DNA from: Poseidonibacter parvus
GTDB taxonomy: Bacteria > Campylobacterota > Campylobacteria > Campylobacterales > Arcobacteraceae
DNA length: 64,000 nt
Reading direction: 5' to 3'
NCBI RefSeq assembly: GCF_001956695.1
Contig: NZ_CP019070.1
Location: 124,001 to 188,000, forward strand
The translations under genes and the position numbers were made by a program. This document shows positions 2,901 to 26,976 of this stretch, piece after piece. The notes under the pieces are model-generated. The model made no database searches. It had not been told where the DNA came from and saw only the letters and a program-made list of their open reading frames with translations. Position 1 is the stretch's first letter. The number at the start of each line of letters is the position of its first letter.

Positions 2901-3121
2901 TTATTATTAATAAGATCTAATTATTTGTTTTCTCTAGTAAGATTAATATTTTATAAGATATAGTTTAATTAACTATTGATAAAAATTGTATATATCTTTT
3001 ATATAAGTTTTTTTAATATTAAAAGTTTGCTGTCTTAACTTATTGGCTTTGTTATTTTAGAGTCAAGTTTATTGCAAAATTTTACTACTTAATGAAGTTT
3101 ATCATTTTTAAGGAAAAAAAT
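2901..3121. other. AT-rich intergenic leader before the NRPS/PKS gene
   Basis: Very AT-rich with no convincing coding potential. It must hold the promoter of the NRPS/PKS gene, and several TATA-like strings occur at 2940-3005, but none has a clear partner -35 element, so I do not place one. The ribosome binding site AAGGA at 3110-3114 is the only firm signal. Confidence 0.5.
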
Positions 3122-6100
3122 ATGTCTGTTATAACAAATACCAACAACCCCTGGATAAGCTGCTATGAAACCAGAGAAAATGCAAAGATTCGTTTGATTT
3201 GTATTCCGCATGGTGGAGGAGGATCACATGTTTACAAAGAATGGGCAGAGAAATTACCTGATTTTATAGAAGTTTATGCACTTAATTTCCCAGGTCGAGG
3301 AAGCAGACGTGAAGAAAATGCAATTTGCAATATGTTTGAACTTCGTGATGAAATTGCTAATGTAATATCTCAAATTTCAGATAAACCTTATGTTATGTTT
3401 GGTCATAGTGTTGGTGCTTTAGTTGCTTACGAAGTTGCAAAAGAGATTGAAAAGCAAGGTATTATGCCACCACTTAGATTAATTCTATCAGCTCATAAGG
3501 CTCCTGAGGATTCAAAAGAAGATGAGCCTATGTATACGCTTAGCGATGAGGATTTAATGAGTAAAATCTTAGAGCTTGGTTTATTACCTGAGGATGTACT
3601 TGAAAATAAAGAATTACTTGATTTTATTTTGCCACCACTTAGAGCTGATTTTGAAATTTCAGAAACTTATGAGTATGAAAAAAGCGATGCTTTAACTATT
3701 CCAATAACTGCAACTTTTGGTAAAACTGATCCATTATTAAATGAACAAGATATACAAAAATGGGAAAAATATACAAATAGTGAATATAAAATCAAAGAGT
3801 ATGATGGCGATCATTTTTATACAGTATCAAAACAAGAACTTCTTTTTGATGATATTGTAAAAGAGTTAAAGCAAGATTTAAAAGCTCTTCCTCTTTCAAT
3901 TATGCACGGAATAAGTGCAGAGTATCCAAAGAAGTGTTTACATGAACTCTTTAAAGAACAAGCACTAAAAAACCCAGAAAAGATTGCAGCATTAGATGTT
4001 GATAAACAAATAAGCTTTAAAGAGTTAGACGAACAAACTGATTTATTAGCAAGAAAATTACAAACTTTAGGCTTAGGCGTTGATGATATTGGTGGAATTT
4101 ATACCCAGAGTTCAGTTGAATATATAATTGCATATTTAGGAATTTTAAAAGCAGGTGGGGCGTATATGCCTTTAGAGGTTGCTTATCCTACAGAATTGTT
4201 AAAAAAAGCATTAAATAAAGCTAAACCAAAAGTTATAGTAACGACAAATGAATATATTGAATTCTTGCCACAAAATGAGCAAATAGTATGTTTAGATGAG
4301 AATTGGCAAGAAAGATTAACAAAAGAAAATCTTCCAGAACTTTACGCAAATCAAGAGAAACCAGATATTGACTCACTTGCATATTGTGTTATGACTTCAG
4401 GTACAACAGGTGAACCAAAAGGGATTATTTGTCCTCATAGAGGTGCTGTAAATTCGTATTATTGGAGATATAACTATTATCCATATCAAGACAATGAAAG
4501 AGAAGCTTGTAATGTCTTTTTTGTATGGGAAGCTGTTCGTGCATTGCTTCAAGGTTTCCCTACTTATGTTATTCCTGATAGCTCAATTTACGATCCATGG
4601 AAATTAGTAAGCTTTTTAGAAGAGCATAAAATTACAAGAGTGCTTTTTACTCCTTCATTATTAGAGCAAATTTTAAATACTCCTTATATAGATTTAACAA
4701 ATCGTTTATCTGGCTTAAAAATTGTATGGTTAAATGGTGAAGTTGTACCAACTACATTAAAAAATAGATTCTTTGAAGTTTTCCCAGATTGTAAACTTTT
4801 AAATGATTATTCTGTTTCAGAAACTCATGATATTTGTACTTATGATTTAGCGCTTTTAGATGAAAGATACTCACCTAAGTTCTCAAGTGTTGGAAAACCA
4901 ATGTCAAATGTGAGCATTTATCTTTTAGATGAAGAACAAAATCCAGTTCCACAAGGTGTTAGTGCTGAAATTTACGTAGCAGGTGATTCACTTGCTAGAG
5001 GATATTTAGGAGATAAAGAAAAAACTGATGAGAGATTTGTAAAAGATACTATTAAAAATGATGGTTCAATTATGTTTCGTTCAGGTGATGCAGGACGATT
5101 CTTGCCAAATGTAGAATTGGAAATAAAAGGTAGAATTGAGTTTATGATTAAACTTCGTGGTTATACAGTTGTACCTGGTGCCGTTGAAGCTGCTATTAAT
5201 GATCATAGTGCAATTAACGCATGTGTTGTAGTTACAAAAGATAACCCTCAAACAAAACAACCTGATGCATTAGTAGCGTATTTAGTAAGCAATAAAAGCA
5301 TGGAAGATAATGAATTAATAATATCTCTAAGAGAGCATTTAAAAAACAACTTGCCTCATTATGAAATCCCATCTTATTTAATAGTTCTTGATGAATTACC
5401 ACTTAATAGTGTTACAGGAAAATTAGATAGAAAAAAATTACCAGATCCTGATGTTGCAGCCCACAAGGCTATAGAAAATGCACCAAAAATTGGTGGAACG
5501 TTAAATGAACAAATAATTATAGATGTATGGCAAGAAGTTTTAGGAACTCCTATAAACTCAGTTAAAGATAACTTTTTTGATTTAGGTGGGCATTCTTTAT
5601 TAGCAGTTAAAATATGTTTTGAGCTTTCACAAAAGCTTAATATTCAAGTTTCAGTTGTTGATATTTTTAATAAACCAACAGTTCAATCTCTTGCAGAGCT
5701 TATTGATTCAAAAAAAGATGGCGGAGGGCTTGCTCATCTTGAAAATATTACGAGTTCAAAAGATAAAGATAATCAAAATAGTTCAAGCGATTTAGCAATT
5801 ATCGGAATGGCTGGGGTTTTCCCAGGTGCAAAAAATGTTGATGAGTTTTGGGATAATCTGTGCAATAAAAATTGCTCTATTAAAGAATTAAGCAGTGAGT
5901 ATTTAGAAAGTATTGGTGTTAGTGCTGAGATTTATGAAGATGAAAATTACCGCGCATATGGGGCTTTAATAGATGACGTAGAGCATTTTGATTATCAATT
6001 TTGGAATTTAAGTAAAAAAGAGTCTGTTTTAATGGATCCTCAACATAGACTATTTTTACAATCTTGTTATCACGCACTAGAAAACGCAGGAATCAAGCCA

Positions 6101-9100
6101 GGTAAGGGCGAGAGAACTGGTGTGTTTGGTGGTTCTTATTCACCTCTTTATTTATTACACCAATTAGGCGGTGGTGGTTTTATGGATCCAACTGATCCTA
6201 TGGAATACCATTTAACTGAAACAGGAAATGATAAAGATTATTTAACAACTAGAGTTTCATATATGCTTGATTTACAAGGGCCTAGTATTGGAGTTCAGAC
6301 TTCTTGTTCAACTGCTCTTTCAGTTATTAGTTCAGCTTGTCAATCACTAGAACTTAATCAATGTGATATTGCTCTTGCAGGTGCTTCAAGTATTACTTTC
6401 CCTCAAGGTGGTTATCAATATGTTGAAGGTCACATAAACTCACTAGATGGAAAAGTAAGAACATTTGATGAAAAAGCTAGTGGAACTATTTTAGGTGATG
6501 GTGTTGGAGTTGTTGTTCTTAAAAGGTTAGATGATGCTCTAAGAGATAAAGATACTATCTATTCTGTTATAAAAGGTTATGCAACAAATAATGATGGTAT
6601 TGAAAAAGCTGGATATTCAGCTCCAGCAGTAAAAGGTCAACAAGTATCAGTAACACAAGCACTTGAAAACGCAAATGTAGGAGCAGATTCTATTAGCTAT
6701 ATAGAAGCTCATGGAACAGGAACCCTAGTAGGTGATCCAATTGAAATAAGAGCTTTAAGTGATGTTTATGAAAGATATACTGACAAGAAACAATATTGTG
6801 CTCTAGGCTCAGTTAAGCCAAATATCGGACATAGTAATATTGCTGCAGGAATGGCTGGTATTATGAAGGCAAGTTTATGTTTATATCATAAAACATTAGT
6901 ACCAAATATAAACTATGATAAACCAAATCCAGCAATGGATATTGAAAATTCTCCTTTTTATGTAAATACAGAGCTTAAAAAATGGGAAGTTGATGGAGAT
7001 TTCCCAAGACGAGCGGGAGTATCTTCTTTAGGAATTGGTGGGACAAATAATCACTTTATTCTAGAAGAAGCTCCAGAAGTTCAAATAAATGAAGATAAAC
7101 AAGAAAAAGATAAACAAGAAAAAGATAAAAATCATAATCTTTTCTTGCTTAGTGCAAAAAGTGAAAACTCACTAAAAGAAAATGCTCTATCAATAGCCAA
7201 CTTTATAGAGAAAAACCCAAATATTAGTTTAGATGATATTGAATATACGTTAAGAGAAACTAAACTATTTTATGAGTATCGAGTAGGAGTTTCTTGTACT
7301 GATAAAAACTCAGCAATTAAGGCTCTAAGAAATAGCGCAAAAGGTACTAAAGTTAGCAAACTTAGTTCAAAACAAATACAAAGTGATATAAAAAATGTTT
7401 TTGTTTTCTCAGGTCAAGGCTCACAGCATGAGTTTATGGGACTAGGACTATATCAAAATGAACCAAGATTTAAAAAATACTTTGATGAATGTTGTAAAAT
7501 TTTAGAAAAAGAATTAGGCGTTGATTTTAAAGAATTACTTTTTGAAAAAGGTGCAAAAGCATTTGAATATGCCTATTATACTCAGCCATTAATTGTAGCT
7601 CATCAGTACTCAATTGCTAAAACTTTAATGGATTGGGGAATAAAACCTGATGGACTTGCAGGTCATAGTATTGGCGAATATACAGCTGCACTTATTAGTG
7701 GAATATTTTCTCTTGAAGATACTTTAAAACTTGTAATAACAAGAGGTAAACAGATGCAAAAAGCAGGAGTTGGCACAATGCTTTCAGCCTCAATGCCATT
7801 ACTTGAAGCAAAAGAAATACTAAAAAAACATAATCAAGTTTCAATTGCCGTTATAAATACACCTAATAGTATTGTCTTCTCAGGAGAAGTTGAAGCTATT
7901 TTAAAACTACAAGAAGAGCTAAGAGCAAAAGATATAAAGTCTCAAAAAGTAAATGTTTCTCAAGCATTTCATTCACCAATGATGAGTGATGCTGCGCAAG
8001 AGTTAACAAAAGTAGTTAAAACAATAAAAAGAAATAAACCACAGATTCCTTTAATGTCAAATGTTACAGGAACTTGGATGAGTGAGAACCAAGTTAATGA
8101 TGACGAATATTGGGGAGCTCATATGCGCGAATGTGTGTATTTTTCTGATAATATTGAGGGATTATTGGCTAAAAGCCCAAGTAATGTAATTGAAGTTGGA
8201 GCTAATACAATTTTAACTACTGCAATGCGTAGTTTTACTGGGAAACTTGATAATAAACCTTTAGTTATTCCTAGTTCAAGACATCCAAAAAATACATCTA
8301 CAAATGATGCAGAAGCTCTAGATAATGTAATAGCTCAAATGTGGGTAAATGGTAGAGAAATTGACTGGAGTCTTTATAGTAATTATAAAGGAAATAGAAT
8401 TGCATTACCTGGATATTCATTTGAAAAAGTGAGTTGTTGGGCAACTAATACAAATCTAATGAGTGGTAGTGTAGAAACTAGTTCTAGCAAAGATGAGATG
8501 ATTAAAGATGTATCAAATCGTGGTTTTATTCCTTCTTGGACAAGAAGCGTTTTCCCAAATGTAAATGATGATTTAAAAGAGCAAAAATGGTTAGTTTTTG
8601 CTAAGGCAGATGAATTTTCAGATGATATTATAAAGTCATTAAAAGATAAAAATGCAAGTATTGAAGTAGTTTATCCAGAAGATGTAAAAATGGATGATGC
8701 TAATTCTTTTATAACGCTTTTTAATACTCTTAATAAAGAAGAAAAATATCCAAATAGAATACTTTATTTATGGACTTTAGGATTAAGTGAAGATGTAAAA
8801 GAACAGTTAGATATGAGTTTTTACCCACTACTTAATTTTACAAAAGGTTTAGCATCACAAAGCTCATTTGATACGCTTAAAGTGTGGATTCTAACTGATT
8901 ATACATTTAGCGTAAATGATGAAAAAACAAATCCAGTTAAAGCTACTCTTTTTGGTCCATCAATAGTTTTACCACAAGAATATTCTCAAATAGAATGTAG
9001 AATGATTGATGTCTTACCTGCTGAAATTAGCTCTACTGATACTAAAAGAAGAGTTTTAAATGAAATATCAGCTACAAACCCTGATATCGAGCCTTTTGTT

Positions 9101-10192
9101 GCAATTAGAGGTATTAAAAGATTTGTAAAAAGATATGAAAAAGCAGCAATTGCACCTGTAGAAAATCAAGATGGTTTTAAACAAGATGGAGTTTATATAA
9201 TCACTGGAGGACTAGGTAGAATTGCCAGAACTCTAAGTGAAAAATTAGCTACATTTAATGCAAAGTTAATCTTAACTACAAGAGGTAATGCAGATACGCA
9301 GAGGATTAAAGAACATATTCAAGTGCTTGAAAGTAAGGGTGCAAAAGTGCAGGTTCTTCAAGCCAATATGGGTGAATTTGATGATGTTGAGAATATTATC
9401 AATGTCGCAATTAAAGAATATGGAAAAATTGATGGAATATTCCATCTAGCAGGAGTTGCGGATTTAAGATATTTACCTGATATAGATAAAGAAATTTGTG
9501 AGTTAGAGTTTAATCCAAAAATTCATGGACTTTTAAATTTAGAGAATGTATTGAGTAAATTAATTGAAGAAAAAGATATCAAGCCTGATTTTGTGATGAT
9601 GTTCTCTTCTCTTGCTTCAATATTAGGTGGTTATAGTATGACTGCATATACAGCAGCTAATCGTTTTATGGATGCATTTACTCAAATAAATCCATATAGA
9701 CTTGGTATAAAATGGCTATGTACAAACTGGGATGATTGGGATTTTGAATACTCAAAAGAGCAAGTTAGCGCATATGAACAAACTGTTGCAAAATACTCTA
9801 TGAGCCCAGAAGATGGTATTGAGAGTATTCAAAGAGTAATTTCTATGAGTGAACCTCTTCAAATTCTAATTTCTACAAGAGATATGAATCCAAGAGTTGA
9901 GCAATGGTTACATCAAAAAGCGCAGGATGAAGAGGATTCAGAAAACAGTGATGAAAAACTAGCAGATGATTTAGTTCAAAGAGTTTCAAAAATTTACAAA
10001 GATGTATTAAGTATGCCTGAACTAAATGATGATGATAATTTCTTTAGTGTTGGGGGAGATAGCTTGATTGCAAGTCAAATTTTATTAAAACTTCGAAGAA
10101 ATTTAAAAGAATATAGCAGTAAGCTTACACTAGCTAGTGTGTTTGATTATCCTTCTGTAGAATCATTGGCTACTTGGCTAAAAGAGAACTAG
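3122..10192 (+). CDS. hybrid NRPS/PKS megasynthase, TE-A-PCP-KS-AT-KR-ACP
   Basis: A single 2356-residue assembly-line enzyme. Start chosen at 3122 because AAGGA lies 7 bases upstream; an in-frame ATG at 3092 lacks this. Order: type II-like thioesterase (Ser96 in GHSVG, Asp203, His231); adenylation domain about 270-775 (TSGTTGEPKG near 425); carrier with Ser825 in GGHSLL; ketosynthase with Cys1062 in TSCSTAL, His1197 in HGTGT and His1237 in NIGHS; acyltransferase with Ser1516 in GHSIGEY and a QAFHS motif of the malonyl-specific kind; ketoreductase with its GGLG nucleotide loop near 2028 and Tyr2176; last carrier with Ser2314 in GGDSL. There is no condensation domain and no C-terminal thioesterase. 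Expected chemistry: activate one acid, extend it with malonyl-CoA, reduce to a beta-hydroxy product. The N-terminal thioesterase may release or edit. All catalytic residues are intact; the product is unknown. Confidence 0.93.
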   Translation: MSVITNTNNPWISCYETRENAKIRLICIPHGGGGSHVYKEWAEKLPDFIEVYALNFPGRGSRREENAICNMFELRDEIANVISQISDKPYVMFGHSVGALVAYEVAKEIEKQGIMPPLRLILSAHKAPEDSKEDEPMYTLSDEDLMSKILELGLLPEDVLENKELLDFILPPLRADFEISETYEYEKSDALTIPITATFGKTDPLLNEQDIQKWEKYTNSEYKIKEYDGDHFYTVSKQELLFDDIVKELKQDLKALPLSIMHGISAEYPKKCLHELFKEQALKNPEKIAALDVDKQISFKELDEQTDLLARKLQTLGLGVDDIGGIYTQSSVEYIIAYLGILKAGGAYMPLEVAYPTELLKKALNKAKPKVIVTTNEYIEFLPQNEQIVCLDENWQERLTKENLPELYANQEKPDIDSLAYCVMTSGTTGEPKGIICPHRGAVNSYYWRYNYYPYQDNEREACNVFFVWEAVRALLQGFPTYVIPDSSIYDPWKLVSFLEEHKITRVLFTPSLLEQILNTPYIDLTNRLSGLKIVWLNGEVVPTTLKNRFFEVFPDCKLLNDYSVSETHDICTYDLALLDERYSPKFSSVGKPMSNVSIYLLDEEQNPVPQGVSAEIYVAGDSLARGYLGDKEKTDERFVKDTIKNDGSIMFRSGDAGRFLPNVELEIKGRIEFMIKLRGYTVVPGAVEAAINDHSAINACVVVTKDNPQTKQPDALVAYLVSNKSMEDNELIISLREHLKNNLPHYEIPSYLIVLDELPLNSVTGKLDRKKLPDPDVAAHKAIENAPKIGGTLNEQIIIDVWQEVLGTPINSVKDNFFDLGGHSLLAVKICFELSQKLNIQVSVVDIFNKPTVQSLAELIDSKKDGGGLAHLENITSSKDKDNQNSSSDLAIIGMAGVFPGAKNVDEFWDNLCNKNCSIKELSSEYLESIGVSAEIYEDENYRAYGALIDDVEHFDYQFWNLSKKESVLMDPQHRLFLQSCYHALENAGIKPGKGERTGVFGGSYSPLYLLHQLGGGGFMDPTDPMEYHLTETGNDKDYLTTRVSYMLDLQGPSIGVQTSCSTALSVISSACQSLELNQCDIALAGASSITFPQGGYQYVEGHINSLDGKVRTFDEKASGTILGDGVGVVVLKRLDDALRDKDTIYSVIKGYATNNDGIEKAGYSAPAVKGQQVSVTQALENANVGADSISYIEAHGTGTLVGDPIEIRALSDVYERYTDKKQYCALGSVKPNIGHSNIAAGMAGIMKASLCLYHKTLVPNINYDKPNPAMDIENSPFYVNTELKKWEVDGDFPRRAGVSSLGIGGTNNHFILEEAPEVQINEDKQEKDKQEKDKNHNLFLLSAKSENSLKENALSIANFIEKNPNISLDDIEYTLRETKLFYEYRVGVSCTDKNSAIKALRNSAKGTKVSKLSSKQIQSDIKNVFVFSGQGSQHEFMGLGLYQNEPRFKKYFDECCKILEKELGVDFKELLFEKGAKAFEYAYYTQPLIVAHQYSIAKTLMDWGIKPDGLAGHSIGEYTAALISGIFSLEDTLKLVITRGKQMQKAGVGTMLSASMPLLEAKEILKKHNQVSIAVINTPNSIVFSGEVEAILKLQEELRAKDIKSQKVNVSQAFHSPMMSDAAQELTKVVKTIKRNKPQIPLMSNVTGTWMSENQVNDDEYWGAHMRECVYFSDNIEGLLAKSPSNVIEVGANTILTTAMRSFTGKLDNKPLVIPSSRHPKNTSTNDAEALDNVIAQMWVNGREIDWSLYSNYKGNRIALPGYSFEKVSCWATNTNLMSGSVETSSSKDEMIKDVSNRGFIPSWTRSVFPNVNDDLKEQKWLVFAKADEFSDDIIKSLKDKNASIEVVYPEDVKMDDANSFITLFNTLNKEEKYPNRILYLWTLGLSEDVKEQLDMSFYPLLNFTKGLASQSSFDTLKVWILTDYTFSVNDEKTNPVKATLFGPSIVLPQEYSQIECRMIDVLPAEISSTDTKRRVLNEISATNPDIEPFVAIRGIKRFVKRYEKAAIAPVENQDGFKQDGVYIITGGLGRIARTLSEKLATFNAKLILTTRGNADTQRIKEHIQVLESKGAKVQVLQANMGEFDDVENIINVAIKEYGKIDGIFHLAGVADLRYLPDIDKEICELEFNPKIHGLLNLENVLSKLIEEKDIKPDFVMMFSSLASILGGYSMTAYTAANRFMDAFTQINPYRLGIKWLCTNWDDWDFEYSKEQVSAYEQTVAKYSMSPEDGIESIQRVISMSEPLQILISTRDMNPRVEQWLHQKAQDEEDSENSDEKLADDLVQRVSKIYKDVLSMPELNDDDNFFSVGGDSLIASQILLKLRRNLKEYSSKLTLASVFDYPSVESLATWLKEN

Positions 10193-10210: not shown

Positions 10211-10885
10211 TTATCTAAAGTTTTTATAGAAACTTTTATATTCTAAGAAGTTAAAATGTTCTTTACTGATTTTTGATTGCGAGCAAACAGAACAATAGTG
10301 TTTTTCATCTAAATTGAAGTTATAAAAATACCATTGTTTCTCGTCATTATCATTTTGAAAAACTTTTGCATAGTGTTTGTCGTATGGTTCAACTGTAAAA
10401 GATGATAAAGACTTATAAACACCAACTCCTAGTGCTTTAATGTAGCTTTCTTTTAGTGTCCAAATTTGGTAGAAATTTTCTAGTTTTCCATTTATATAGT
10501 CTGTTTCTTCTGTAGTTAATATCTCTTTATAGTCTGTTAAATCAATATCTTTGATCTGTTCTATATCTATTCCAATATTATTACTATCAATTACACAAGC
10601 TACCCAATCTCCAGAGTGAGTGATATTAAAATCTATATTTTCTAAGTTTTTTAAAAATGGTTTTCCCGTTGGAGATCTTTCAATGACTATATCTTTCTTA
10701 TCAATTCCATTTTTATCTAAAGCATAATAAAGCAAAGCAGAGCTTAAAAGTGAACGAATATAATCTTTTCTTTGATGATATTGTTTTGCATATTCAACTC
10801 TTTGAGCAGAAATTGTTTTTTCTAACATTGATAAATCATGATCATTGATATTAAAATCAAGTTTTAAAAAATATACATTTTGCAT
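10211..10885 (-). CDS. Sfp-type 4'-phosphopantetheinyl transferase
   Basis: Transfers phosphopantetheine from CoA to the conserved serine of carrier domains. The family signatures are visible: IGIDIEQI (Mg-binding acidic residues) and WTLKESYIKALG (the WxxKEAxxK-type motif). Length 224 residues is usual for Sfp-type enzymes, and longer than the AcpS type that serves fatty-acid synthesis. It lies tail to tail with the NRPS/PKS gene, whose Ser825 and Ser2314 are the obvious targets; that pairing is inference from position. It is the second gene of a two-gene unit, starting 7 bases after the upstream 154-residue gene. Confidence 0.92.
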   Translation of the reverse strand: MQNVYFLKLDFNINDHDLSMLEKTISAQRVEYAKQYHQRKDYIRSLLSSALLYYALDKNGIDKKDIVIERSPTGKPFLKNLENIDFNITHSGDWVACVIDSNNIGIDIEQIKDIDLTDYKEILTTEETDYINGKLENFYQIWTLKESYIKALGVGVYKSLSSFTVEPYDKHYAKVFQNDNDEKQWYFYNFNLDEKHYCSVCSQSKISKEHFNFLEYKSFYKNFR

Positions 10886-11676: not shown

Positions 11677-12207
11677 ATGCCATATCTAGTTGGATCACTT
11701 ATAGCAATCGTAACTGCTATGACTATTTTATTTACAAGATATGAAGCGGATGATAGTACTATAAAAGCGGAACTTGAAAATATGAGAGTTATGTTTTCAA
11801 TGGTTGATGGTTTTGTTGAGACTTGTATTAATACAGATAGTAGTTGTTTAGATGATATTAGTTTTGAAAAGTTAAGTATTGCAGGAGTATTAATTAATAA
11901 TTCTGTTGTGTCAGGTAGTGGATTATCATCTACTGTAACTTTTCCACACAATGATGTTATTTGGCAAATAATTCCAAATAAAAATGCAAGTAATTCATAT
12001 AAATTATTAGTTGATATGAGGGCAAGTGCAGGCTTGATGAGTAAAGCTATTTTTTCTGAAAACTTCTCAAGTAGAGAATTTTGTGAAAAACCTCTTTTTG
12101 GTACAGCAGAACTAAAAGAAAATCAATTTGATGGTACAGATGATTTTGAAGATAGTGGTTCAAGCACAACAAGTGATGGATTTTTTGTCTGTACAGTATT
12201 TAAATAG
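11677..12207 (+). CDS. leaderless pilin-like protein, first gene of pilus locus
   Basis: 176 residues beginning MP and a hydrophobic helix (VGSLIAIVTAMTILF), followed by an amphipathic segment and a secreted-type C-terminal domain with four Cys. The shape matches a mature type IVb pilin: N-terminal helix anchoring a globular head. There is no basic leader, no Gly before the helix and no Glu at position 5, so a normal prepilin peptidase site is absent. The N-terminus resembles that of the next gene (MPQLIAMVIVVVGAM), so the two are probably related. Ribosome binding site AAGGA lies 6 bases before the ATG. Role as minor pilin is inference. Confidence 0.7.
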   Translation: MPYLVGSLIAIVTAMTILFTRYEADDSTIKAELENMRVMFSMVDGFVETCINTDSSCLDDISFEKLSIAGVLINNSVVSGSGLSSTVTFPHNDVIWQIIPNKNASNSYKLLVDMRASAGLMSKAIFSENFSSREFCEKPLFGTAELKENQFDGTDDFEDSGSSTTSDGFFVCTVFK

Positions 12208-12293
12208 TTTGGTGCGATTTATAGTATAAAAATAAATTGTTAAAATTTATGGTAGGTTGGTAGGAAAATTAAAATTAATAAAAAAGGATTAAA

Positions 12294-12950
12294 ATGCCAC
12301 AGTTAATAGCAATGGTTATAGTAGTAGTTGGAGCAATGATTTACATGTTTCAAACGTTTGGTGGAACAGGTGATAAGATTGAAGGTATTGCACAAAAGTC
12401 TAGTATTATGACAGAAATTAATAATATTAAAAATGGACTTCAGCTTGCAGCTAGAGATGAAGTTTTAAGAGCAACAGATAGTACAACCGCTGATAAAGTA
12501 GAAACTTTAGAAGGATTAGCTGAGTTAGAATATTTTGCTGATCAAATTAATGATGAGTTAGATGCTACAGCAACAACTGATACTGCAAATGTATATCAAG
12601 CAATTTCATTTGGTTCAGGAAATACGATGGAAATTTCACTTGTATTACCAGCTAAAGCTAATGCTACTACTCTTGCAAGACCAGGATTATTCATTGATAT
12701 TTCAAAAGGTTCATTAGCTACAAATGCAGGCTTCTTAGAAAAACAGTTAGTAGCAGATTTAGGTGCATTAGCAAGTATTGATGTAAATCAAACTTCAGCT
12801 ACATATAATACTACAATAGATGCAGCAGGTGATCTTACAACACCAGCAGCACTAGTCGCTGCTTCAGGTACTACTGCTGCAACAGATGAAGATGGTAAAT
12901 TTGTTATTTATTTTAAAGATTTACAACGTGGTGTTATTGATAATCAATAA
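12294..12950 (+). CDS. probable major pilin, leaderless type IVb-like
   Basis: 218 residues: MPQLIAMVIVVVGAM transmembrane helix, then a segment with TEINNIKNGLQ that recalls the alpha-1 helix of mature type IVb pilins such as TcpA, then an Ala/Thr-rich soluble domain without Cys. The simple composition, a strong AAAGGA ribosome binding site and two hairpins just after it fit a highly expressed structural subunit. As in the gene before, no leader peptide, no cleavage Gly and no Glu5 are present. The assignment rests on architecture and context; I cannot confirm it by alignment. Confidence 0.7.
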   Translation: MPQLIAMVIVVVGAMIYMFQTFGGTGDKIEGIAQKSSIMTEINNIKNGLQLAARDEVLRATDSTTADKVETLEGLAELEYFADQINDELDATATTDTANVYQAISFGSGNTMEISLVLPAKANATTLARPGLFIDISKGSLATNAGFLEKQLVADLGALASIDVNQTSATYNTTIDAAGDLTTPAALVAASGTTAATDEDGKFVIYFKDLQRGVIDNQ

Positions 12951-12963
12951 TAAAATAAAAATA

Positions 12964-12992
12964 AACACATTAGGCTTTTTAGCCTAAGTGTT
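12964..12992 (+). terminator. hairpin 1 after probable major pilin
   Basis: AACAC(A)TTAGGCT-TTTT-AGCCTAAGTGTT forms a 12-pair stem with one bulged A. No strong T-run follows, so it may act as a partial terminator or as a 3'-end stabiliser that raises the pilin message over the downstream genes. Confidence 0.7.
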
Positions 12993-13001
12993 ATCTAAAA
13001 C

Positions 13002-13036
13002 AAAAAATGAGTATTAATTCCTAATATTCATTTTTT
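13002..13036 (+). terminator. hairpin 2 after probable major pilin
   Basis: A 15-pair stem (one G-T pair) from A-run 13002-13007 to T-run 13031-13036 around loop ATTCC, ending in Ts. With hairpin 1 it sits in the 109-base gap between the major pilin and the next gene, and probably sets subunit ratios by partial termination. Confidence 0.65.
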
Positions 13037-13059
13037 ATTTTACAAAAGGGTAAATACAA

Positions 13060-13800
13060 ATGTTAGGAAATATATGGCTATCATCAGCACTCATTGTTAC
13101 AGCTATATATTCTGCATCGTCTTTATATAAGTCTTATTCAGATACCCAAGAAGCAAAGCAGATTCAAGAAAACTATCAAATAATATCTGATATAAAAACT
13201 CTTTTAGCAGAACAATACAATAAAAATCCAGATGAAGTAACTCGTGATGAAATTATGATGCATTTACCAGCTGGTGGAAATTGGGAAAAGGTACTTCTTT
13301 TAGATAGAAACAGTACAAGTACTCTTGAAAACGATGCATTAGTTGATGAAGATGGGAATTTTGTCTTAGACGAAAGTGAACAACTAAAACTTTTTGCTTT
13401 AAGAGCAAAATTAAGTAATTTGTCTGATTCAAATACTGAAAATACAGTTGATGGAGTACATACTTTTATTGTTGGAAAAGAAGAAAAAAATATAGTAAAT
13501 AAAAATATATCAATTGATGATAGTTTAGAAAAAGCCATTGAGTATTTAAGTACAGCTATTTTGTATTCAACTTTGACAAGTTCAGAGATTGAAGTAATAT
13601 TAGAAGATGCTATTGAAACATACACTCCACATAGTGACATATATCAAGATATGAAAACTAGTGAAACAGAAGTTATTGATGATGTTGAATTAGCAATTAG
13701 AAAAAAAGCGTTTTTTAAAAAAAGATTAGAAGAAGAGTTACTTTTAAATAAAAATGCAATGGAAACAAAACTATATTATCACTTGAAAGATTTATTATGA
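13060..13800 (+). CDS. pilin-like membrane-anchored protein
   Basis: 246 residues. One N-terminal helix (IWLSSALIVTAIYSASSLY) is followed by a long acidic, mostly helical region (EAKQIQENYQIISDIKTLL) with no other membrane segment. The helix plus amphipathic extension again resembles a mature pilin without leader, larger than its two predecessors; a minor or initiating pilin is a reasonable guess. Ribosome binding site AAGGG lies 8-9 bases upstream. The stop overlaps the start of the next gene (ATGA), so translation is probably coupled. Confidence 0.6.
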   Translation: MLGNIWLSSALIVTAIYSASSLYKSYSDTQEAKQIQENYQIISDIKTLLAEQYNKNPDEVTRDEIMMHLPAGGNWEKVLLLDRNSTSTLENDALVDEDGNFVLDESEQLKLFALRAKLSNLSDSNTENTVDGVHTFIVGKEEKNIVNKNISIDDSLEKAIEYLSTAILYSTLTSSEIEVILEDAIETYTPHSDIYQDMKTSETEVIDDVELAIRKKAFFKKRLEEELLLNKNAMETKLYYHLKDLL

Positions 13801-14543
13801 TTAAAATAATTTTAGTATTTTTAACACTTTTTATATCTCTAAATACTTTACATGCTGAAGATTCAGAATTTATACAACAACAAGAGTTATTCTTAAAGGT
13901 AAAAACGATTATTCAAGAAGAAGAGTCAATTGCTCGTGCTTATGAAAATTTTATATTAAATGAGAAGAAATTACCAACAACTTTTGCCCAACTTGTAACA
14001 GATGAGTACTTAGATAGCGGTTTTACTCTAACACCTTTTGTAGATGGAGAAACTGTATCTGTAAATGATTTTGGATTTAGAAAAGAGATAAATAACAGAC
14101 TTAAAGGTTCGTCATTAGAAGAAGATGAAAGTATACAAAGATTATATGAAAGTGATTTATTTAGAAAAAAAACATACTTTTATGATAGAGATGAAATAGG
14201 AATAAAACTTGAAGATGAGTTTGTAAATCATTTATATTTTTTAAGTTCAACTGCAGGATTTAATTTAATTAAGTGTGGTATAAGTCCTAAGAAAAAGTAT
14301 TGTTGGAATAAAGAAGATACAGATGAAAATGTTATATATATTTATCAAGAAGATGCTCAAACAAATTTACTGATGTATTACTCAGTAGATAATTTCAAAA
14401 CAGGCCCAATAATCATTACAAATGACACTTCTTTACATATAACTAGTGATGAGTTTAATTCAATTCCAAAAGGAGCTCTTTTATATGATACAGAAGCTGT
14501 AAAGTATATAAAAACTAGAGACTCTATTGAGGTGGTGAAATAA
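13797..14543 (+). CDS. periplasmic protein, pilus-locus paralogue family member 1
   Basis: 248 residues with a cleavable signal peptide ending LHA. After it comes a module shared by four proteins of this locus: an I-x-x-E-E-x-I-A-x-A helix (TIIQEEESIARAYENFIL), then LPTTFAQL and EYLDSGF. Further shared features are LYESDLFRKKT and a C-terminal KYIKT. One Cys pair (ECG..KKYCW region near 160-170) may form a disulfide. Function unknown; probably an exported pilus component or tip-complex subunit. It overlaps both neighbours by one to four bases, so it belongs to the pilus operon. Confidence 0.65.
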   Translation: MIKIILVFLTLFISLNTLHAEDSEFIQQQELFLKVKTIIQEEESIARAYENFILNEKKLPTTFAQLVTDEYLDSGFTLTPFVDGETVSVNDFGFRKEINNRLKGSSLEEDESIQRLYESDLFRKKTYFYDRDEIGIKLEDEFVNHLYFLSSTAGFNLIKCGISPKKKYCWNKEDTDENVIYIYQEDAQTNLLMYYSVDNFKTGPIIITNDTSLHITSDEFNSIPKGALLYDTEAVKYIKTRDSIEVVK

Positions 14544-15250
14544 TGAAAATATTAATAATACTTTATTTATTTTTTAATTTTCTAAATGCAAAAGATACCT
14601 TAGTAGTACAACAGCAAAATGTATTGTATGTTCAAAATCTAATAGAAGTAGAAGAAAAAATAGCAAGTAATTTTGAAAAATATTTACTAAATGAGTATTC
14701 AATACCAAGTTTAAATGATTTAATAGATGATGAATATTTAGGAAGTAATTTTACAACTACAAATAAATTCAGTTCAAGCGATATAGATTTTGTATCAGGT
14801 GATAATTTAAAAATAAAATATGCAATTACTAAAGATGTTCAATTATATGTTACTGCTTTATATGAAAGAGATTTATATAGAAATATGACTACAGTTTATA
14901 AAGATGAGAACACTCCAAGTAATTCATATGTTTCTTTTGAACTAGAATCAAAAGTTGCCGAAAATATTTTAGAGATTTTAGAAGCAGGTTCTAGTATTGC
15001 TAGTGAATGTTCTGCAACTTTAACAAATACTTACTGTATTACAAATTTAAGTGCAATAAGATGGTATGACTCAATTTCACGTTGGATTGAATATAGTAAT
15101 GAAGACTTTGAAGAAGGAAATGTGACAATTAGTACAACAGGTCTTTTGTCAAGTACAAAGTTAGATGAATTAAATGTGGGTGCCTTTGTTCTTGTAAATA
15201 ATGGCGATAAATATATAAAAACTCTTACAGATATTGCAAAGGTTGATTAA
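14543..15250 (+). CDS. periplasmic protein, pilus-locus paralogue family member 2
   Basis: 235 residues with signal peptide ending LNA. It is a tandem duplicate of the gene before by pattern: NLIEVEEKIASNFEKYLLNE, IPSLNDL, EYLGSNF, then LYERDLYRN and a terminal KYIKTLTDI. The Cys pair is at a similar place (about 155 and 165). Start ATG overlaps the previous stop (TAATG), and the next gene begins directly after its stop. Same likely role as its paralogue; the actual activity is unknown. Confidence 0.65.
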   Translation: MKILIILYLFFNFLNAKDTLVVQQQNVLYVQNLIEVEEKIASNFEKYLLNEYSIPSLNDLIDDEYLGSNFTTTNKFSSSDIDFVSGDNLKIKYAITKDVQLYVTALYERDLYRNMTTVYKDENTPSNSYVSFELESKVAENILEILEAGSSIASECSATLTNTYCITNLSAIRWYDSISRWIEYSNEDFEEGNVTISTTGLLSSTKLDELNVGAFVLVNNGDKYIKTLTDIAKVD

Positions 15251-18169
15251 ATGAAGTTTTTACTTTTACTTTTATTATTAATAAATATTAGCTTTGCAAA
15301 TAGTCAAAATATATCTAGAATGAATGCCTTAAAAAAAGTTATTCAAAAAGAAGAATATATTGCCTTAGCAATAAATAAATACATATTGCAAACAGGAACT
15401 ATTCCTAAAACAAATTTAAATAAATTAGATTGGGAAAAATTAGATCATGAAGATTACTTAGGAGAGAGTTTTAATAAAAAGAATCCTTTAACTTCTGAAG
15501 ATATAGATGTTTACTATGATACTCAAACTTACAATTTTTTTATTAGAGGTGTTGTTGTTGATATTGGAACAGAAGAAGAACCAGAATCATCTTATGATGA
15601 AGATTTAAAGTATCTTTATAACTTTTATAAAAGTAGAATATTTAGAGTAAATACAATAGCTCCACTAGATACAACAGAAGAAAAACTAAAAAAAGGCTCT
15701 CAAGTTCTTTATTCCTCAACTCAAAAAGAGATAATAAAAATACTTAGTTCAACAAGTGACAATACAATAAAACTTGATAGTCAAGAATGTGAAGTAAGTA
15801 GTTATTATTATGAATTAAAAGGAAAAGAATTAACTTACAAATACTGTAAAACGGTTGATAATCCAATTACTGTATATCAAGATTCTCCTATTTATGTTGA
15901 AGACTATACGGAATTAGAGTATATAAAAGCAAAAATCGGTGATAAGGCTTATGCCAAAAAAGATGGAACTTGGTACGAGTATTATTATCAAGGAGATACA
16001 AATCCTCCTTGGGTTGCAGTATATTTAGGTACAGCTATTAGCGCAGCTGATGAAGATGAAAATATTGAGGATTTAATACTTTCTTATATTCCTGATGCAA
16101 AAGATTTAGTTTTTAGACAAGATGGTGGATGTATGCTAGCAAATGGAGATATCTTTTGTTGGGGTAACAACAAGTATAAAAAAGCTGGGATTGAAAACTA
16201 CGGACAATTAGACACTTCTTTAAGTCCAGATTACGTTAATACTCCTGTAATGTTAAAAGTTCAAATTGATGATACAACTGAAATTAATGGTATAACTAGA
16301 TATGACAAGAATTGGTACAATAATCCATATAGAGTAAAATTTGAAAAGATGAGTATGAATAGTACTAATGTATGTGGAATATCACCAATTTTTTCATATT
16401 CAGTTGATGGGATTGCAAAAAAAATTGGAGGAGATTTATACTGTAATGGTAGTATTTCTTCTACATATTTTGAAGATATAGAAGAAGAGGTTAAAAGTAC
16501 TTCAATTTTAAAAAAGAATAGATTTTTTGCTTTAGGAAAAGATGATAAATTAAATAATGATAATGAAATATATTTGCAAGATATTGTGATGGTTGAAGAC
16601 ACAGCTGCAGTATTGTCAGAATCAGGAGATATTTATACTTTTGGACGAAATTATAAAGGCGCTCTAGGAATAGGAAGTGATGATAAGTTTATAATAGAAA
16701 ATACTCCACAGAAAATTGATACAGATATTATTTTTGAAAAAATCTTTGCCCTTCGAGACATAAAAGGATTTGGAGCTATTGATGAAGATAACTATTTTTG
16801 GATTTGGGGAGAGCGACCAAATGGTACTATTTATAATGAACCTACACTTTTAGATACCAGTAAAAGATTTGATAAAGATGCAATTTTTGTAAATACAAAT
16901 GAGTTTGTCTTAAAAGGTGTTGATAATGTCTTTTATAAAACAACAGAAGATAATTCTATTAGTTCGTTATCAGAAATTCCAAGCAGTGCAATAAGTGTAT
17001 CTATTTATGGAGATTTTTATACATATGTTAATGAAGATTTAGAGTTAAAAGGAAGTGCTAACTTACTTAAATGTATGCAATCAAATGAAATTTATGAATG
17101 TAGTGATGAGAATAAAAATATTTTTGCTTTGGCTATTGATAAACTAAATGAAAAATCAAATACAATAAATGGAAAAGATTTTGCAAACTTTTCAAATGTT
17201 TCTATTTTTAAATTAGATAGTGTAATAAAAGAAGAATTTGAAGATTTTGAAGATATTTCGAAAATAGATATTTCAGAAGAAACAGGATGGAAGGTGAAAA
17301 ACAAATCTGATGATAGTGAAATAGCACTTGATTCCTTTAGAACTTCATATCCACCAACTAATATATCTGCACAAGATGGACCTGATGATGCAGAGAGAAT
17401 CGATCCTTCTAGAATTCTAGGAATAATTAAAGTTGGAACAGAATATGTGGAAAAAACATACAATTTAGGTATTGAATATGCAAATAATGAAGTTGAAGTA
17501 GAGTTCGATTTCTTTGAGATTGATTCTTGGGATTATGAGAAATTTAATGTTGAATTAAATGGTGTTAACTTTATTGAGGACGGTTTTATTCATGATGATC
17601 ATGAGGTATTTACTGACTCGAGTGATACGGGAATAGCAGTTAAAAATTTAGTTACTGTATATACTCAAACTGGTGAAAATCGTAAATATAATGATGAAAA
17701 ATATCACTATAAATTAAGACATAAGTTAAATTCTAGTGGAGATTTAACAGTGAAATTTAGTACAAGATTATTAGTTCCGCCTGAACCTGGAGCATCTTCT
17801 GATAATGCAAATTATAATTATCTAGTTCAAGGACTAGCAGATGAATCTTGGGGAATTGATAATGTACATGTAAAAGTAAAAGAAACAAATAAAAAATTTG
17901 TGTGTGCAATGACAGGTTTTGCTAGTAACTCGCAAATGTATTGTTGGGGTAACACTGCAAGGAGTATACCTATTTTAAGCACATCTTTATATGATATGAG
18001 TAAAATAAATACTGTAAATAAATTATTTATTACTCAAGAGAATGAGAAAAAAGAAAAAATGTCTTACAGTCAATTTAATTCAATTGGTGAAAATGATTCT
18101 GAAGGGAATTTATTCCTTAAGTTTCCTACTTATATTGGAGGATTTGATTATGGTTTTTATTTTAAATAA
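15251..18169 (+). CDS. RCC1-like propeller / jelly-roll exported protein, candidate pilus adhesin (family member 3)
   Basis: 972 residues. Signal peptide (LLLLLLLINISFANS), then the locus-specific module (KKVIQKEEYIALAINKYIL), then a propeller with RCC1-type repeats: GDIFCWGNN near 300, GDIYTFGRN near 458, YFWIWGE near 515 and QMYCWGN near 895. Between the last repeats a beta-sandwich insertion at about 660-877 ends SWGIDNVHVKVK, a pattern I associate with adhesin or lectin-like jelly rolls. The C-terminus FPTYIGGFDYGF matches that of the other propeller protein of this locus. Paired Cys around the WG repeats suggest disulfides. Likely a surface or pilus-tip adhesin; PilY1-like function is inference from the propeller only. 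Confidence 0.75.
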   Translation: MKFLLLLLLLINISFANSQNISRMNALKKVIQKEEYIALAINKYILQTGTIPKTNLNKLDWEKLDHEDYLGESFNKKNPLTSEDIDVYYDTQTYNFFIRGVVVDIGTEEEPESSYDEDLKYLYNFYKSRIFRVNTIAPLDTTEEKLKKGSQVLYSSTQKEIIKILSSTSDNTIKLDSQECEVSSYYYELKGKELTYKYCKTVDNPITVYQDSPIYVEDYTELEYIKAKIGDKAYAKKDGTWYEYYYQGDTNPPWVAVYLGTAISAADEDENIEDLILSYIPDAKDLVFRQDGGCMLANGDIFCWGNNKYKKAGIENYGQLDTSLSPDYVNTPVMLKVQIDDTTEINGITRYDKNWYNNPYRVKFEKMSMNSTNVCGISPIFSYSVDGIAKKIGGDLYCNGSISSTYFEDIEEEVKSTSILKKNRFFALGKDDKLNNDNEIYLQDIVMVEDTAAVLSESGDIYTFGRNYKGALGIGSDDKFIIENTPQKIDTDIIFEKIFALRDIKGFGAIDEDNYFWIWGERPNGTIYNEPTLLDTSKRFDKDAIFVNTNEFVLKGVDNVFYKTTEDNSISSLSEIPSSAISVSIYGDFYTYVNEDLELKGSANLLKCMQSNEIYECSDENKNIFALAIDKLNEKSNTINGKDFANFSNVSIFKLDSVIKEEFEDFEDISKIDISEETGWKVKNKSDDSEIALDSFRTSYPPTNISAQDGPDDAERIDPSRILGIIKVGTEYVEKTYNLGIEYANNEVEVEFDFFEIDSWDYEKFNVELNGVNFIEDGFIHDDHEVFTDSSDTGIAVKNLVTVYTQTGENRKYNDEKYHYKLRHKLNSSGDLTVKFSTRLLVPPEPGASSDNANYNYLVQGLADESWGIDNVHVKVKETNKKFVCAMTGFASNSQMYCWGNTARSIPILSTSLYDMSKINTVNKLFITQENEKKEKMSYSQFNSIGENDSEGNLFLKFPTYIGGFDYGFYFK

Positions 18170-18178
18170 GGGAAAAGA

Positions 18179-19834
18179 ATGCATTATGCTTTAAGAAATG
18201 TTTCATTAATCACAATTGCTGTTTTCATGTTAACTGCTTGTTCAACAAAGAGTTATCACAATGAGATGACTACAGATGTTGAAAAGTTAGTTAATGAAAA
18301 AAGTTATGATAGAGTTAGAAACTCATACTCTGAAGAATTAGTATCAGAAAAAAATAAAAATAAAGAGTTTATAGATATTTTAAGTGACAAGTCACTAGGA
18401 GATGTTTTAAAAGAGTTAGAATTAATTGATGGTAATTTTTACTATTTAAAAAGTAGTGATATTTTAGTTCCTAAAAGTAGAATGAAGATTCATAATATGG
18501 CTGAATTAAATCAGTATTTAAATGCTGTACTTGATAAAGAACTTTTTATAAAAAAGAATGGTTCAATATATCTAGTTAAACTTTTAAGTACAAGTGAAAC
18601 AAAAAAACAATCAATTAAAGATATTCCTTTTAAGTTAAACGGTCAAATTTCAGTTGAAGAATTAATTAAATTAATAACTGCAGAATCTGGTTATGAAGTT
18701 TCAATTGGAAATTATATAAAAGACAAAGATGACTTCCAAAATAGTATTGTTTCTGTGAGATCTAAAAACTTAATAAATGCAATTAATTCTCTTGCTCATG
18801 CAAAAAATGTATATGTTGATATTGATTATGATAAAGAGATGATTAATATAAAAAGATATAAAGATGTTGTTGTTGAGTTAAATATTCCATTATTAAATAT
18901 TACAACTACAAATGAAACGTCATCAAGTGAGACTAGTGGTGAAAGTAAAGTTGAAAATAGTTCAGAAATTATTCTTTATGATGAGCTAGATAAAATGATG
19001 AAAAATATAATTGGTAATGATTCTATTTCTACATACCATATAGATAAAGCAAGTGGTCTTATTTTTATGAAAGCAACTAAGACTGTTGAGTCAGCAGTTA
19101 GAACAATTGCAAAAGCATATGAAGATAGTTTTGCAAGAGAAGCTACTATTGTATTTGAAAGAATTGAGCTAGTTTTAAATAAAAGTAGAGAATATGGAAT
19201 TGGTTCTGTTTCAAGAACAGCAGGTGCATCAGATTCTACTGGTGTTACAAAATCCTTAGCAACAGAAGGTGCCATCTCATTTCTTAACCAAGGTGCAACT
19301 AGATTGTTACAAGTTACAGGAACAATTGATAATCAAATAGGAAAAATTTTAAACTATAGTAAAAATGTAATGGTATTAAAAAATAATATTCCTTCTGTTC
19401 AATCAATTAGTCAAAATACAGACTATATAGAAAAAATTGAAACAACTGTTAATGATAATGTAACAACTTCAGAAGCTACTGTAAATACAATTAAAGATGG
19501 TACTTCAATAACTGCAATGGCTAAGATATCAAGAGATAAACTATTTTTAAATATTACTCCTAATATTAAAAAACTTATAAGTATTTCAGAGGCAACTGTT
19601 GGTGATTCTACTATTCAATTACCAGAATATAAAGACCAAAGTTACAATATTTCAAGAGAGATAAAAGTTGGTGAGACTTCAATTGTTGGTTCTATAATTG
19701 TTCATGATGATGCAAAAGAGTATGAAGGTATACTTCCTTTAGAAGGTTTTGCAATTGGTGGTAGTGATTCAAAATCTTATGTAAGAAGAGAAATAGTGTA
19801 TGTTGTTTCTGTAGAAAGTATTAAAGGCTTCTAA
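18179..19834 (+). CDS. type IVb pilus outer-membrane secretin, lipoprotein (BfpB/PilN-like)
   Basis: 551 residues, the normal length for BfpB- or PilN-type secretins. A lipobox LTAC places the lipidated residue at Cys21. An N-terminal region with secretin N-domain character (LSDKSLGDVLKELELIDGNF; NLINAINSLAHAKNVYVDID) precedes the secretin ring domain in the last 250 residues (RIELVLNKSREYGIG; FLNITPNIKK; GETSIVGSIIVHDD; YVVSVE). It would form the outer-membrane pore for the fibre. It lies 9 bases after the adhesin gene and 2 before the platform gene, in the same operon. Confidence 0.88.
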   Translation: MHYALRNVSLITIAVFMLTACSTKSYHNEMTTDVEKLVNEKSYDRVRNSYSEELVSEKNKNKEFIDILSDKSLGDVLKELELIDGNFYYLKSSDILVPKSRMKIHNMAELNQYLNAVLDKELFIKKNGSIYLVKLLSTSETKKQSIKDIPFKLNGQISVEELIKLITAESGYEVSIGNYIKDKDDFQNSIVSVRSKNLINAINSLAHAKNVYVDIDYDKEMINIKRYKDVVVELNIPLLNITTTNETSSSETSGESKVENSSEIILYDELDKMMKNIIGNDSISTYHIDKASGLIFMKATKTVESAVRTIAKAYEDSFAREATIVFERIELVLNKSREYGIGSVSRTAGASDSTGVTKSLATEGAISFLNQGATRLLQVTGTIDNQIGKILNYSKNVMVLKNNIPSVQSISQNTDYIEKIETTVNDNVTTSEATVNTIKDGTSITAMAKISRDKLFLNITPNIKKLISISEATVGDSTIQLPEYKDQSYNISREIKVGETSIVGSIIVHDDAKEYEGILPLEGFAIGGSDSKSYVRREIVYVVSVESIKGF

Positions 19835-19836
19835 TA

Positions 19837-20853
19837 ATGAGTATGTTTGCAGATCCATATGAACAATTCTTACTAGATTATTTAGTAACAAAACTAGAAA
19901 ATGGATCTAATACTAGAAAAGCTTTACTTTTGTATAAAGAACAAATCACAAAAGAAACAAGATTTAAAAAGAGACTTGATGCTGCTATTAAAGATATGGA
20001 AATAGGAAAGCATAAGCTTGAAGCAATTTTGCATAAAAACAAGTTTTTAAATGACTTTCAATACAGCCTAGTAGTAAATAGTACTAATACTGTTGATGGT
20101 TTAAAACTTGTACAATCTTTTGAAAAAGCAAACTCTAATTTATTACCTAAGATGATTAATCCTATATTTGTTCCATTATCAATCATTATTTTTTCTTTTT
20201 ATGGTTTGATTTTATATTTAGGAATGCTTGAAAAAGATTTAGTTGGTTTACGAAAACTAAACTCTGATGTAGAATCTTTTTTAGGAATTCCTGCATATTT
20301 TACTTATGATTTTGCATATATAGGACTTGGTATTTCTATTTTTATTACTTTATTTATACTACTTGGATACATATACACAGAAAAATATAAGCCAGCTTGG
20401 TTATATAAAGTCTTTAAAACTCAATGTTATTCAGATGGTAGATTTATGTTTAGAATTTTAAATGGTATGTTAAGTGCAGGTATTTCATTTCACAAGACAT
20501 CATTAATTCTTTCAAAAGATTACTTTAAAGTAGGACTTCGTCCATTTTTTGCAGAACTTGCTGATATTATTAATAAGAATAAAAAATTATTCTTGGTTTT
20601 TGAAAAGTATAACTTCCCACCCTTAATTACAGCAGATATCAAATTATCAGAATTAAGTAAAACAAGCTTTGCTGATGTTACAAAAGCACTATATCAAACA
20701 TGTGATACAATGTATGAAAAAAATATTGCATATATGGTTATTCAGTGGAGACTGATTTTTTGGTTAATAGCTATGCTTGTTACAGTAATAATAGGTTCAG
20801 ATATTATAAATTTAGTTATAAGTACATTTACTTTTAAAACTCTGTACCAATAA
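19837..20853 (+). CDS. pilus inner-membrane platform protein (GspF/PilC/BfpE-like)
   Basis: 338 residues. Three to four hydrophobic segments, at about 107-130 (NPIFVPLSIIIFSFYGLIL), 160-185 (YIGLGISIFITLFILLGYI) and 307-332 (FWLIAMLVTVIIGSDIINL), flank two cytoplasmic helical domains. The second holds a GspF-like core (RFMFRILNGMLSAGISFHK). This is the polytopic protein that couples the ATPase to pilin extraction from the membrane. The order secretin - platform - ATPase is normal for type IVb pilus and type II secretion loci. Confidence 0.85.
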   Translation: MSMFADPYEQFLLDYLVTKLENGSNTRKALLLYKEQITKETRFKKRLDAAIKDMEIGKHKLEAILHKNKFLNDFQYSLVVNSTNTVDGLKLVQSFEKANSNLLPKMINPIFVPLSIIIFSFYGLILYLGMLEKDLVGLRKLNSDVESFLGIPAYFTYDFAYIGLGISIFITLFILLGYIYTEKYKPAWLYKVFKTQCYSDGRFMFRILNGMLSAGISFHKTSLILSKDYFKVGLRPFFAELADIINKNKKLFLVFEKYNFPPLITADIKLSELSKTSFADVTKALYQTCDTMYEKNIAYMVIQWRLIFWLIAMLVTVIIGSDIINLVISTFTFKTLYQ

Positions 20854-20862
20854 GAAGAAAAA

Positions 20863-22521: not shown

Positions 22522-23264
22522 TAGTAACAGATTTCCAAACTAAAGAAGACAATGAAACTTTCTATCTTAATGATGAATTTGATATTTCTCAGAAAATGTT
22601 CACTTATGATTCTTTTAAAAAACATAGTGTATATTTATCAAAGTATGAGGTTACAAATACAATATACTCTTTGAATTTATTATCAAGAAAATATTTAAAT
22701 AAAAACCAATTATTAGTACATATTACAGATAGTGAATATTTTATATTGTTTAATCATAAAACTGTATATTCCGCAAAGATAAATCAAAACTTTATTACTG
22801 ATGATATTATAAAATCAATTCTTATTACAAAACATATTGCGATGCTTTCAAGTGGTGGTAGTATAAAAAAATATTACTATGTGATTAGTTCAAAATATAA
22901 AAGTGCAGTTGAAAATATTTTAAAGCAGAATACAAAAAATGAAAAAAATGAGGAGATAGCTTATAGTTTAGGTAATGTTGAAGAACTAGTTAAACCTTTA
23001 AATGAGCTAGATACTTTTAAGTCACATTCTGCAAAAAATATTTTTGTTTTATTCTTTGTAATATTAATGGCATGGGTTATGTTTTTTGGTTTAGAGCAAT
23101 TAACAAAAAAATATATTTATAAAGAGCCTTTAGAAAAACTAAAAAGAGAAATAAAGATTGAAAAAAGATTAATACAAAGACAAAAGATTTTATTAAATAG
23201 AACTAATAAAAAATATAAAGAATTAACTGATTGTATTACTCCTATTGAGGTGAAGAATGATTAG
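22509..23264 (+). CDS. bitopic inner-membrane pilus protein (GspL/BfpC-like position)
   Basis: 251 residues: a cytoplasmic domain (1-170), one membrane helix at about 178-195 (FVLFFVILMAWVMFFG) and a charged coiled-coil tail outside. The cytoplasmic part has a beta-rich pattern that could be the actin-like fold of BfpC or GspL, but I see no firm motif. A strong GGGGAGG ribosome binding site lies inside the ATPase gene end, and the 13-base overlap suggests coupled translation. Together with the next protein it probably forms the assembly platform linking ATPase to periplasm. Confidence 0.65.
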   Translation: MVRLVVTDFQTKEDNETFYLNDEFDISQKMFTYDSFKKHSVYLSKYEVTNTIYSLNLLSRKYLNKNQLLVHITDSEYFILFNHKTVYSAKINQNFITDDIIKSILITKHIAMLSSGGSIKKYYYVISSKYKSAVENILKQNTKNEKNEEIAYSLGNVEELVKPLNELDTFKSHSAKNIFVLFFVILMAWVMFFGLEQLTKKYIYKEPLEKLKREIKIEKRLIQRQKILLNRTNKKYKELTDCITPIEVKND

Positions 23265-25934: not shown

Positions 25935-25953
25935 AAGTTTTAAAAGGAAAAAA

Positions 25954-26967: not shown

Positions 26968-26976
26968 GGCATAGCT

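Follow-up and report, generated by a model that had tools for sequence, protein, structure and literature searches.

The stretch of DNA analysed here (the window) comprises 64,000 nucleotides from Poseidonibacter parvus and contains, at 11677-28050, a pilus locus of 14 genes that include those for a secretin-, a platform- and an ATPase-like protein, as the original prediction had said. The first three open reading frames, p1, p2 and p3, lie exactly where they had been placed (11677-12207, 12294-12950 and 13060-13800), and the products of all three begin at or beside a hydrophobic helix, again as predicted. The genes of the locus are as follows.

11677-12207, + strand: p1, type IV pilin-like subunit of 176 aa without a leader (MPYLVGSLIAIVTAMTILFTRYEADDS...)
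12294-12950, + strand: p2, type IV pilin-like subunit of 218 aa without a leader (MPQLIAMVIVVVGAMIYMFQTFGGTGDKI...)
13060-13800, + strand: p3, membrane-anchored protein of uncertain role, 246 aa (MLGNIWLSSALIV...)
13797-14543, + strand: s1, accessory protein; N-terminal signal sequence of ordinary appearance, then a helix
14543-15250, + strand: s2, with a layout that resembles s1
15251-18169, + strand: rcc1, 972-aa exported RCC1-repeat protein (RCC1 above the Pfam cut-off)
18179-19834, + strand: secretin-like lipoprotein, MshL-related (TIGR02519, E 7.6e-9, under the equivalog cut-off)
19837-20853, + strand: inner-membrane platform protein, T2SSF/PilC-like (PF00482, E 0.01, under the cut-off)
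20863-22521, + strand: extension ATPase of the GspE/PilB type (PF00437, E 5e-65)
22509-23264, + strand: putative PilN-position assembly protein with a single late TM segment (by position)
23257-23751, + strand: putative PilO-position assembly protein with an N-terminal TM segment and a coiled coil (by position)
23748-25934, + strand: rcc2, second exported RCC1-like protein (PF25390, E 8.7e-14, under the cut-off)
25903-26967, + strand: PilP-position periplasmic protein (weak SH3 match)
26977-28050, + strand: cytoplasmic protein, the conserved last gene of the locus, with a C terminus that by eye is histidine-kinase-ATPase-like

Two components of a type IV filament machine, the extension ATPase and a secretin, are thus present; the secretin was recognized with the MshL profile, matched over 286-518 at 35 bits against a cut-off of 250 bits, and this sub-threshold match is the only one to any MSHA component. 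The platform gene is conserved in 25 of 104 genomes of the family, and its place in the locus agrees with a platform role. The PilN-, PilO- and PilP-type names are suggested by gene position; the PilN-position protein had no profile match, and the true start of the PilP-position gene probably lies downstream of the listed GTG. Searches with s1 gave no match in Pfam or NCBIfam, and s2 gave nothing above the cut-off in Pfam. The two RCC1 proteins (15251-18169 and 23748-25934) are both large and exported and have similar N- and C-terminal ends; by analogy with PilY1, the presence of beta-propeller-like proteins in a pilus locus suggests a role at the tip or surface, with rcc1 as a candidate tip or surface protein. 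A stretch like 'IQKEEYIALAINKYILQTGTIPK' is common to s1, s2, rcc1 and rcc2, in each case after the signal sequence (13797-15250, 15251, 23748), and resembles the post-helix region of a pilin, but lacks the membrane helix. Directly upstream of the locus, translations read by eye point to a large hybrid NRPS/PKS-like gene (3092-10192), adjoined by a phosphopantetheinyl transferase-like gene (10211-10885).

We compared the N termini of p1 and p2 with those of their orthologues in two alignments of 23 rows each, the p2 alignment holding the window and 22 loci and the p1 alignment the window, 21 loci and a further p1-like gene, from locus L060. In p2, M1, P2 and A6 are invariant (23/23) and no residue before D27 is charged; in p1, position 2 holds Pro in 18 rows, Ala in 4 and Gly in 1, residue 6 is always Ser, Ala or Gly (Ser in 15/23), and the first charge comes at position 21, or at 27 in one row. 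Position 6, which would be +5 of a mature pilin, is Ala, Ser or Gly in all rows of both alignments, so that the Glu that is usual, though not universal, at +5 of type IV pilins is found in none, and none of the 23 p1 and 23 p2 rows has a leader that closes with Gly or Ala (−1). For two of the three proteins, then, the claim that leader, Gly at −1 and Glu5 are missing stands. The p1 genes of L046 (2189) and L049 (1756) start with TTG, and residue 2 is still Pro.

The original prediction had named an alternative upstream start encoding a leader as one finding that would overturn it, and no such leader was found in the p1 and p2 orthologues. No p2 orthologue has an in-frame ATG, GTG or TTG upstream, the open stretch before the nearest in-frame stop being 1-18 codons long; an in-frame upstream start codon is present in three p1 loci, and no upstream stretch of either gene terminates in Gly or Ala. 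A Shine-Dalgarno-like site precedes the start of 23/23 p2 and 21/21 p1 genes. Hidden upstream starts are in this way ruled out for p2 and for nearly all p1 genes. A scan for prepilin motifs detected no canonical prepilin in the locus of the window and a single match in the 22 related loci, a 60-aa antisense frame that is implausible as a prepilin and a chance match; the same scan was positive in each of four sister loci (see below) and in most other pilin loci of the genome. Because orthologue starts, upstream stretches and motif scan agree, the lack of a leader in p1 and p2 counts as a conserved property, and at the level of the genes it is a firm observation. Against this background the suggestion that the true start lies upstream, or that a leader is joined by a frameshift to give a normal prepilin, can draw on the in-frame upstream starts of three p1 and three p3 orthologues, but it is contradicted by the p2 genes, with in-frame stops as near as 1 codon, by the Shine-Dalgarno-like sites at the annotated starts and by the lack of any upstream stretch ending in Gly or Ala; judged from these comparative sequence data, we regard an artefact of this kind as highly improbable.

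The third protein behaves differently. No relation between p3 and p2 was detected by sequence comparison, the minimal locus L060 has no p3 gene, and residue 3 is Gly, Ala or Ser in all 22 rows of the p3 alignment. Because of this constancy, p3 could carry a leader of three residues, and the claim of three leaderless pilin-like subunits holds for p1 and p2, p3 being on the sequence evidence a membrane-anchored protein of uncertain role.

Evidence that p1 and p2 are pilins comes mainly from structure prediction, one of the checks first proposed, which gave models resembling pilins; structures unlike pilins, the other finding that would have overturned the claim, did not turn up. The AlphaFold models (mean pLDDT 86.8 for p1 and 80.4 for p2) show a predicted hydrophobic N terminus running into a helix of ∼53 residues followed by a beta-sheet head; in p2, the helix is single and unbroken from residue 2 to 54. 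Foldseek alone returned nothing significant for either protein, and VIA-align was run on Foldseek's candidates. The best match of p1 is PilS (3fhu, Z 8.2, rmsd 3.9, 120 residues) and that of p2 is the CofA pilus (9iuf, Z 7.9, rmsd 5.6, 164 residues, p2 model residues 3-208 superposing on CofA 1-208), Z values of 7.9-8.2 being middling on the tool's own scale. For p1, the next rows are 7t31 (Z 7.5) and 8qqj (Z 5.6), so that all three top rows are type IV pilins, and the first non-pilin rows are Arp2/3 chains at Z 5.0; for p2, the top eight chains are all type IV pilins (Z 7.9 to 3.8, including CofA, PilA1, FimA and CofB), and the first unrelated row has Z 3.5. The two proteins are homologous over their length, with Met1 aligned on Met1 (hhalign 95.7%, E 9e-9), so that, for all the moderate Z values, pilins head the list for two related proteins. 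Cys 136 and Cys 172, near the C terminus of p1, are invariant across orthologues; two Cys residues frame the C-terminal part of many pilins in the same way, as the D-region. Median identity among p2 sequences is 85% in the N-terminal part and 41% in the head, and in the nearest relatives 93% versus 38-52%, with the ATPase at 94%. Such a combination, a head that changes fast on a conserved N-terminal helix, is what one expects of the subunit of a surface filament, and we regard p2 as the candidate major subunit. A profile search of PDB sequences with the p1 and p2 alignments did not match pilins, and Pfam, NCBIfam and PHROGs hold no family for p1, p2 or p3; the assignment of p1 and p2 as pilins is nevertheless well supported by the models.

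The leaderless locus was found in 25 of 104 Arcobacteraceae genomes, and in a sample of 397 genomes from the phylum p2 occurred only in this family. No p2 relatives were found in viral contigs, and a plasmid search with the ATPase gave distant matches only, among them a Nitratiruptor plasmid locus (L125) that carries the annotation of a type II secretion system and was set aside. The minimal locus L060 keeps p1, p2, the secretin, platform and ATPase genes and the N-, O- and P-position genes, lacks the RCC1 genes as well as p3, and has p1 and p2 directly upstream of the secretin. Beside it, on the opposite strand (15154-16275), lies the gene for a 373-aa p1-like protein (MPFLIAVILAIALCIIIIFTKYDG...) whose C-terminal extension contains an internal repeat; the protein may be a minor pilin with an extra domain and without a leader.

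In four sister loci (L063, L064, L065 and L156), canonical prepilins (e.g., MKKG/ITLIEIILAIV and MSYKKA/FTMVELVVT, the slash marking the cut) accompany related secretin, platform and ATPase genes, and one genome, G052, holds both kinds, the leaderless L062 and the canonical L064. In the ATPase tree, the 4 sister rows and 17 leaderless-locus rows fall on one side, apart from the other ATPases (100/100); the leaderless group itself has modest support (80/54), several branches are long, and the outgroup is not cleanly one-sided. Because sister and outgroup systems use leaders and the ATPase tree joins the two groups, the simplest history is that the leader was probably lost in the Arcobacteraceae lineage. 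Profile comparisons of p1 and p2 with the sister prepilins are weak (A1 against A7, E 0.003 with the N-terminal register shifted; A2 against A6, likewise weak at 61.8%), so the precise match of positions −1, +1 and +5 depends on superposition and on one motif: in structure alignments, residue 3 of the p2 model falls on the first residue of mature CofA and of mature FimA, and MAFFT matches the LIA of p2 to the LIE of the sister prepilins. Taken as they stand, these alignments suggest that the p2 N terminus lies within about two residues of that of a mature pilin.

That the locus contains no prepilin peptidase, as originally noted, is correct; the genome, however, encodes one elsewhere. A single A24 prepilin peptidase with both domains lies among housekeeping genes at 2.72 Mb (G000:C1:2721637), outside the pilus locus, and canonical prepilins for other systems are encoded at other loci of the same genome, one of them at 880 kb, apart from the other pilin gene clusters; the genome also has two further GspE/PilB-type ATPases. 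An A24 gene is present in 25/25 genomes carrying the leaderless locus, that is, no carrier without a prepilin peptidase was found among the 25, and genomic co-occurrence therefore cannot show peptidase independence. MSH loci, too, lack a prepilin peptidase gene of their own, which is located elsewhere (PMC6668835). Since the genome encodes the enzyme elsewhere and all carriers have an A24 gene, its absence from the locus carries by itself little weight, and the argument rests on the subunits.

The interpretation that we favour, and consider likely, is that a type IV pilus-like machine is encoded here, with p1 and p2 as subunits that are made leaderless and polymerized without a prepilin peptidase step. 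Translation would begin where the peptidase normally cuts, the start replacing the cleavage site: the initiator Met would occupy the place of the Gly or Ala at −1, residue 2 would correspond to mature +1, and Ala, Ser or Gly would stand in place of Glu at mature +5. The hydrophobic N-terminal helix would itself be the signal anchor, with the N terminus inside and the head outside. Methionine aminopeptidase removes the initiator Met when position 2 is Pro, Ala or Gly; Met removal is therefore predicted for p1 and p2, and the enzyme would expose one of these three residues. The ATPase and platform of the locus would then draw p1 and p2 into a filament and out through its secretin. The exposed Pro of p2 and most p1 proteins, a secondary amine, might, speculatively, be a stand-in for the N-methylated residue. 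We infer Met removal, topology, filament assembly and peptidase independence from the genes and models, and assembly of p1 and p2 without the peptidase is a reasonable inference. The original prediction of a machine that assembles unprocessed pilins thus survives in that p1 and p2 are leaderless, pilin-like and encoded beside the machinery, and "unprocessed" is probably inexact, given the predicted loss of Met, after which the subunit would have mature length.

Two other readings accept the starts as annotated. The housekeeping prepilin peptidase might cut p1 and p2 after residue 6 (MPQLIA/MII), or p3 after residue 3 (MLG/NIW), which would make these segments very short uncharged leaders; the small residue 6 throughout both alignments (Ala in all p2, Ser, Ala or Gly in all p1), the Gly, Ala or Ser at p3 residue 3 (22/22) and the two-domain A24 enzyme of the genome are in keeping with this. 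We nonetheless think such cryptic processing unlikely: known leaders are hydrophilic and invariably end in Gly or Ala (PMC10191384), whereas residue 6 is Ser in 15 of 23 p1 rows and the first 20-26 residues of p1 and p2 are uncharged, a cut after residue 6 would leave the predicted helix shorter than its 53 residues, and it is residue 3 of the model that superposes on the mature start of CofA and FimA. Just as doubtful, in our estimate, is the view that p1 and p2 are pilin-derived membrane proteins outside the filament, with a canonical prepilin encoded elsewhere as the true fibre subunit. Candidates for that part do exist in the genome, including the isolated prepilin at 880 kb, but in the minimal locus L060 the secretin gene follows directly on p1 and p2, none of the 22 related loci has a canonical prepilin that is credible, and the contrast between an invariant N-terminal helix and a rapidly changing head fits a surface filament subunit.

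No type IV filament is held to form unless prepilin peptidase cleaves the leader, which also serves both to define pilins and to find them (PMC10191384, PMC6668835); in known systems, processing comes before assembly (PMC10191384). With polymerization of leaderless p1 and p2 as the preferred reading, the locus may well represent a type IV filament lineage that does without prepilin peptidase, in which pilins are made at mature length and neither leader cleavage nor Glu5 is needed. If true, such a lineage would show which parts are essential among leader, N-methylation and Glu5, and would imply that leader-based pilin finders miss systems of this kind; the sister systems with ordinary prepilins offer a natural comparison, in G052 within one genome. 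A leaderless type IV pilin, or a locus of this sort, is unreported in the open-access literature that we searched.

Among known systems, the closest are the type IVb pilins, such as CofA of enterotoxigenic E. coli and PilS of Salmonella Typhi: they provide the best structural matches of the p2 and p1 models, they share with p1 and p2 the predicted long helix and beta head, and their genes likewise adjoin those for secretin, platform and ATPase. Known type IV pilins, however, have a prepilin leader ending in Gly or Ala and often Glu5, and p1 and p2 are without both. The MSHA (mannose-sensitive haemagglutinin) pilus system is similar in that MshL is the best named match of the secretin and in that MSH loci are also free of a peptidase gene (PMC6668835); it differs in that MSH pilins carry class III leaders and the leaderless locus has RCC1 proteins, and the MshL match falls far under the cut-off of its family. 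Tip minor pilins of the GspK/PilK type also lack Glu5 (PMC10191384) but keep a cleaved leader, whereas p1 and p2 have neither leader nor Glu5. The sister Campylobacterota systems L063, L064, L065 and L156 are alike in machinery and kind of locus and occur in related genomes, and their pilins are canonical. The system described here is thus one that would work like a type IV filament system and whose subunits lack one of the features by which type IV pilins are defined.
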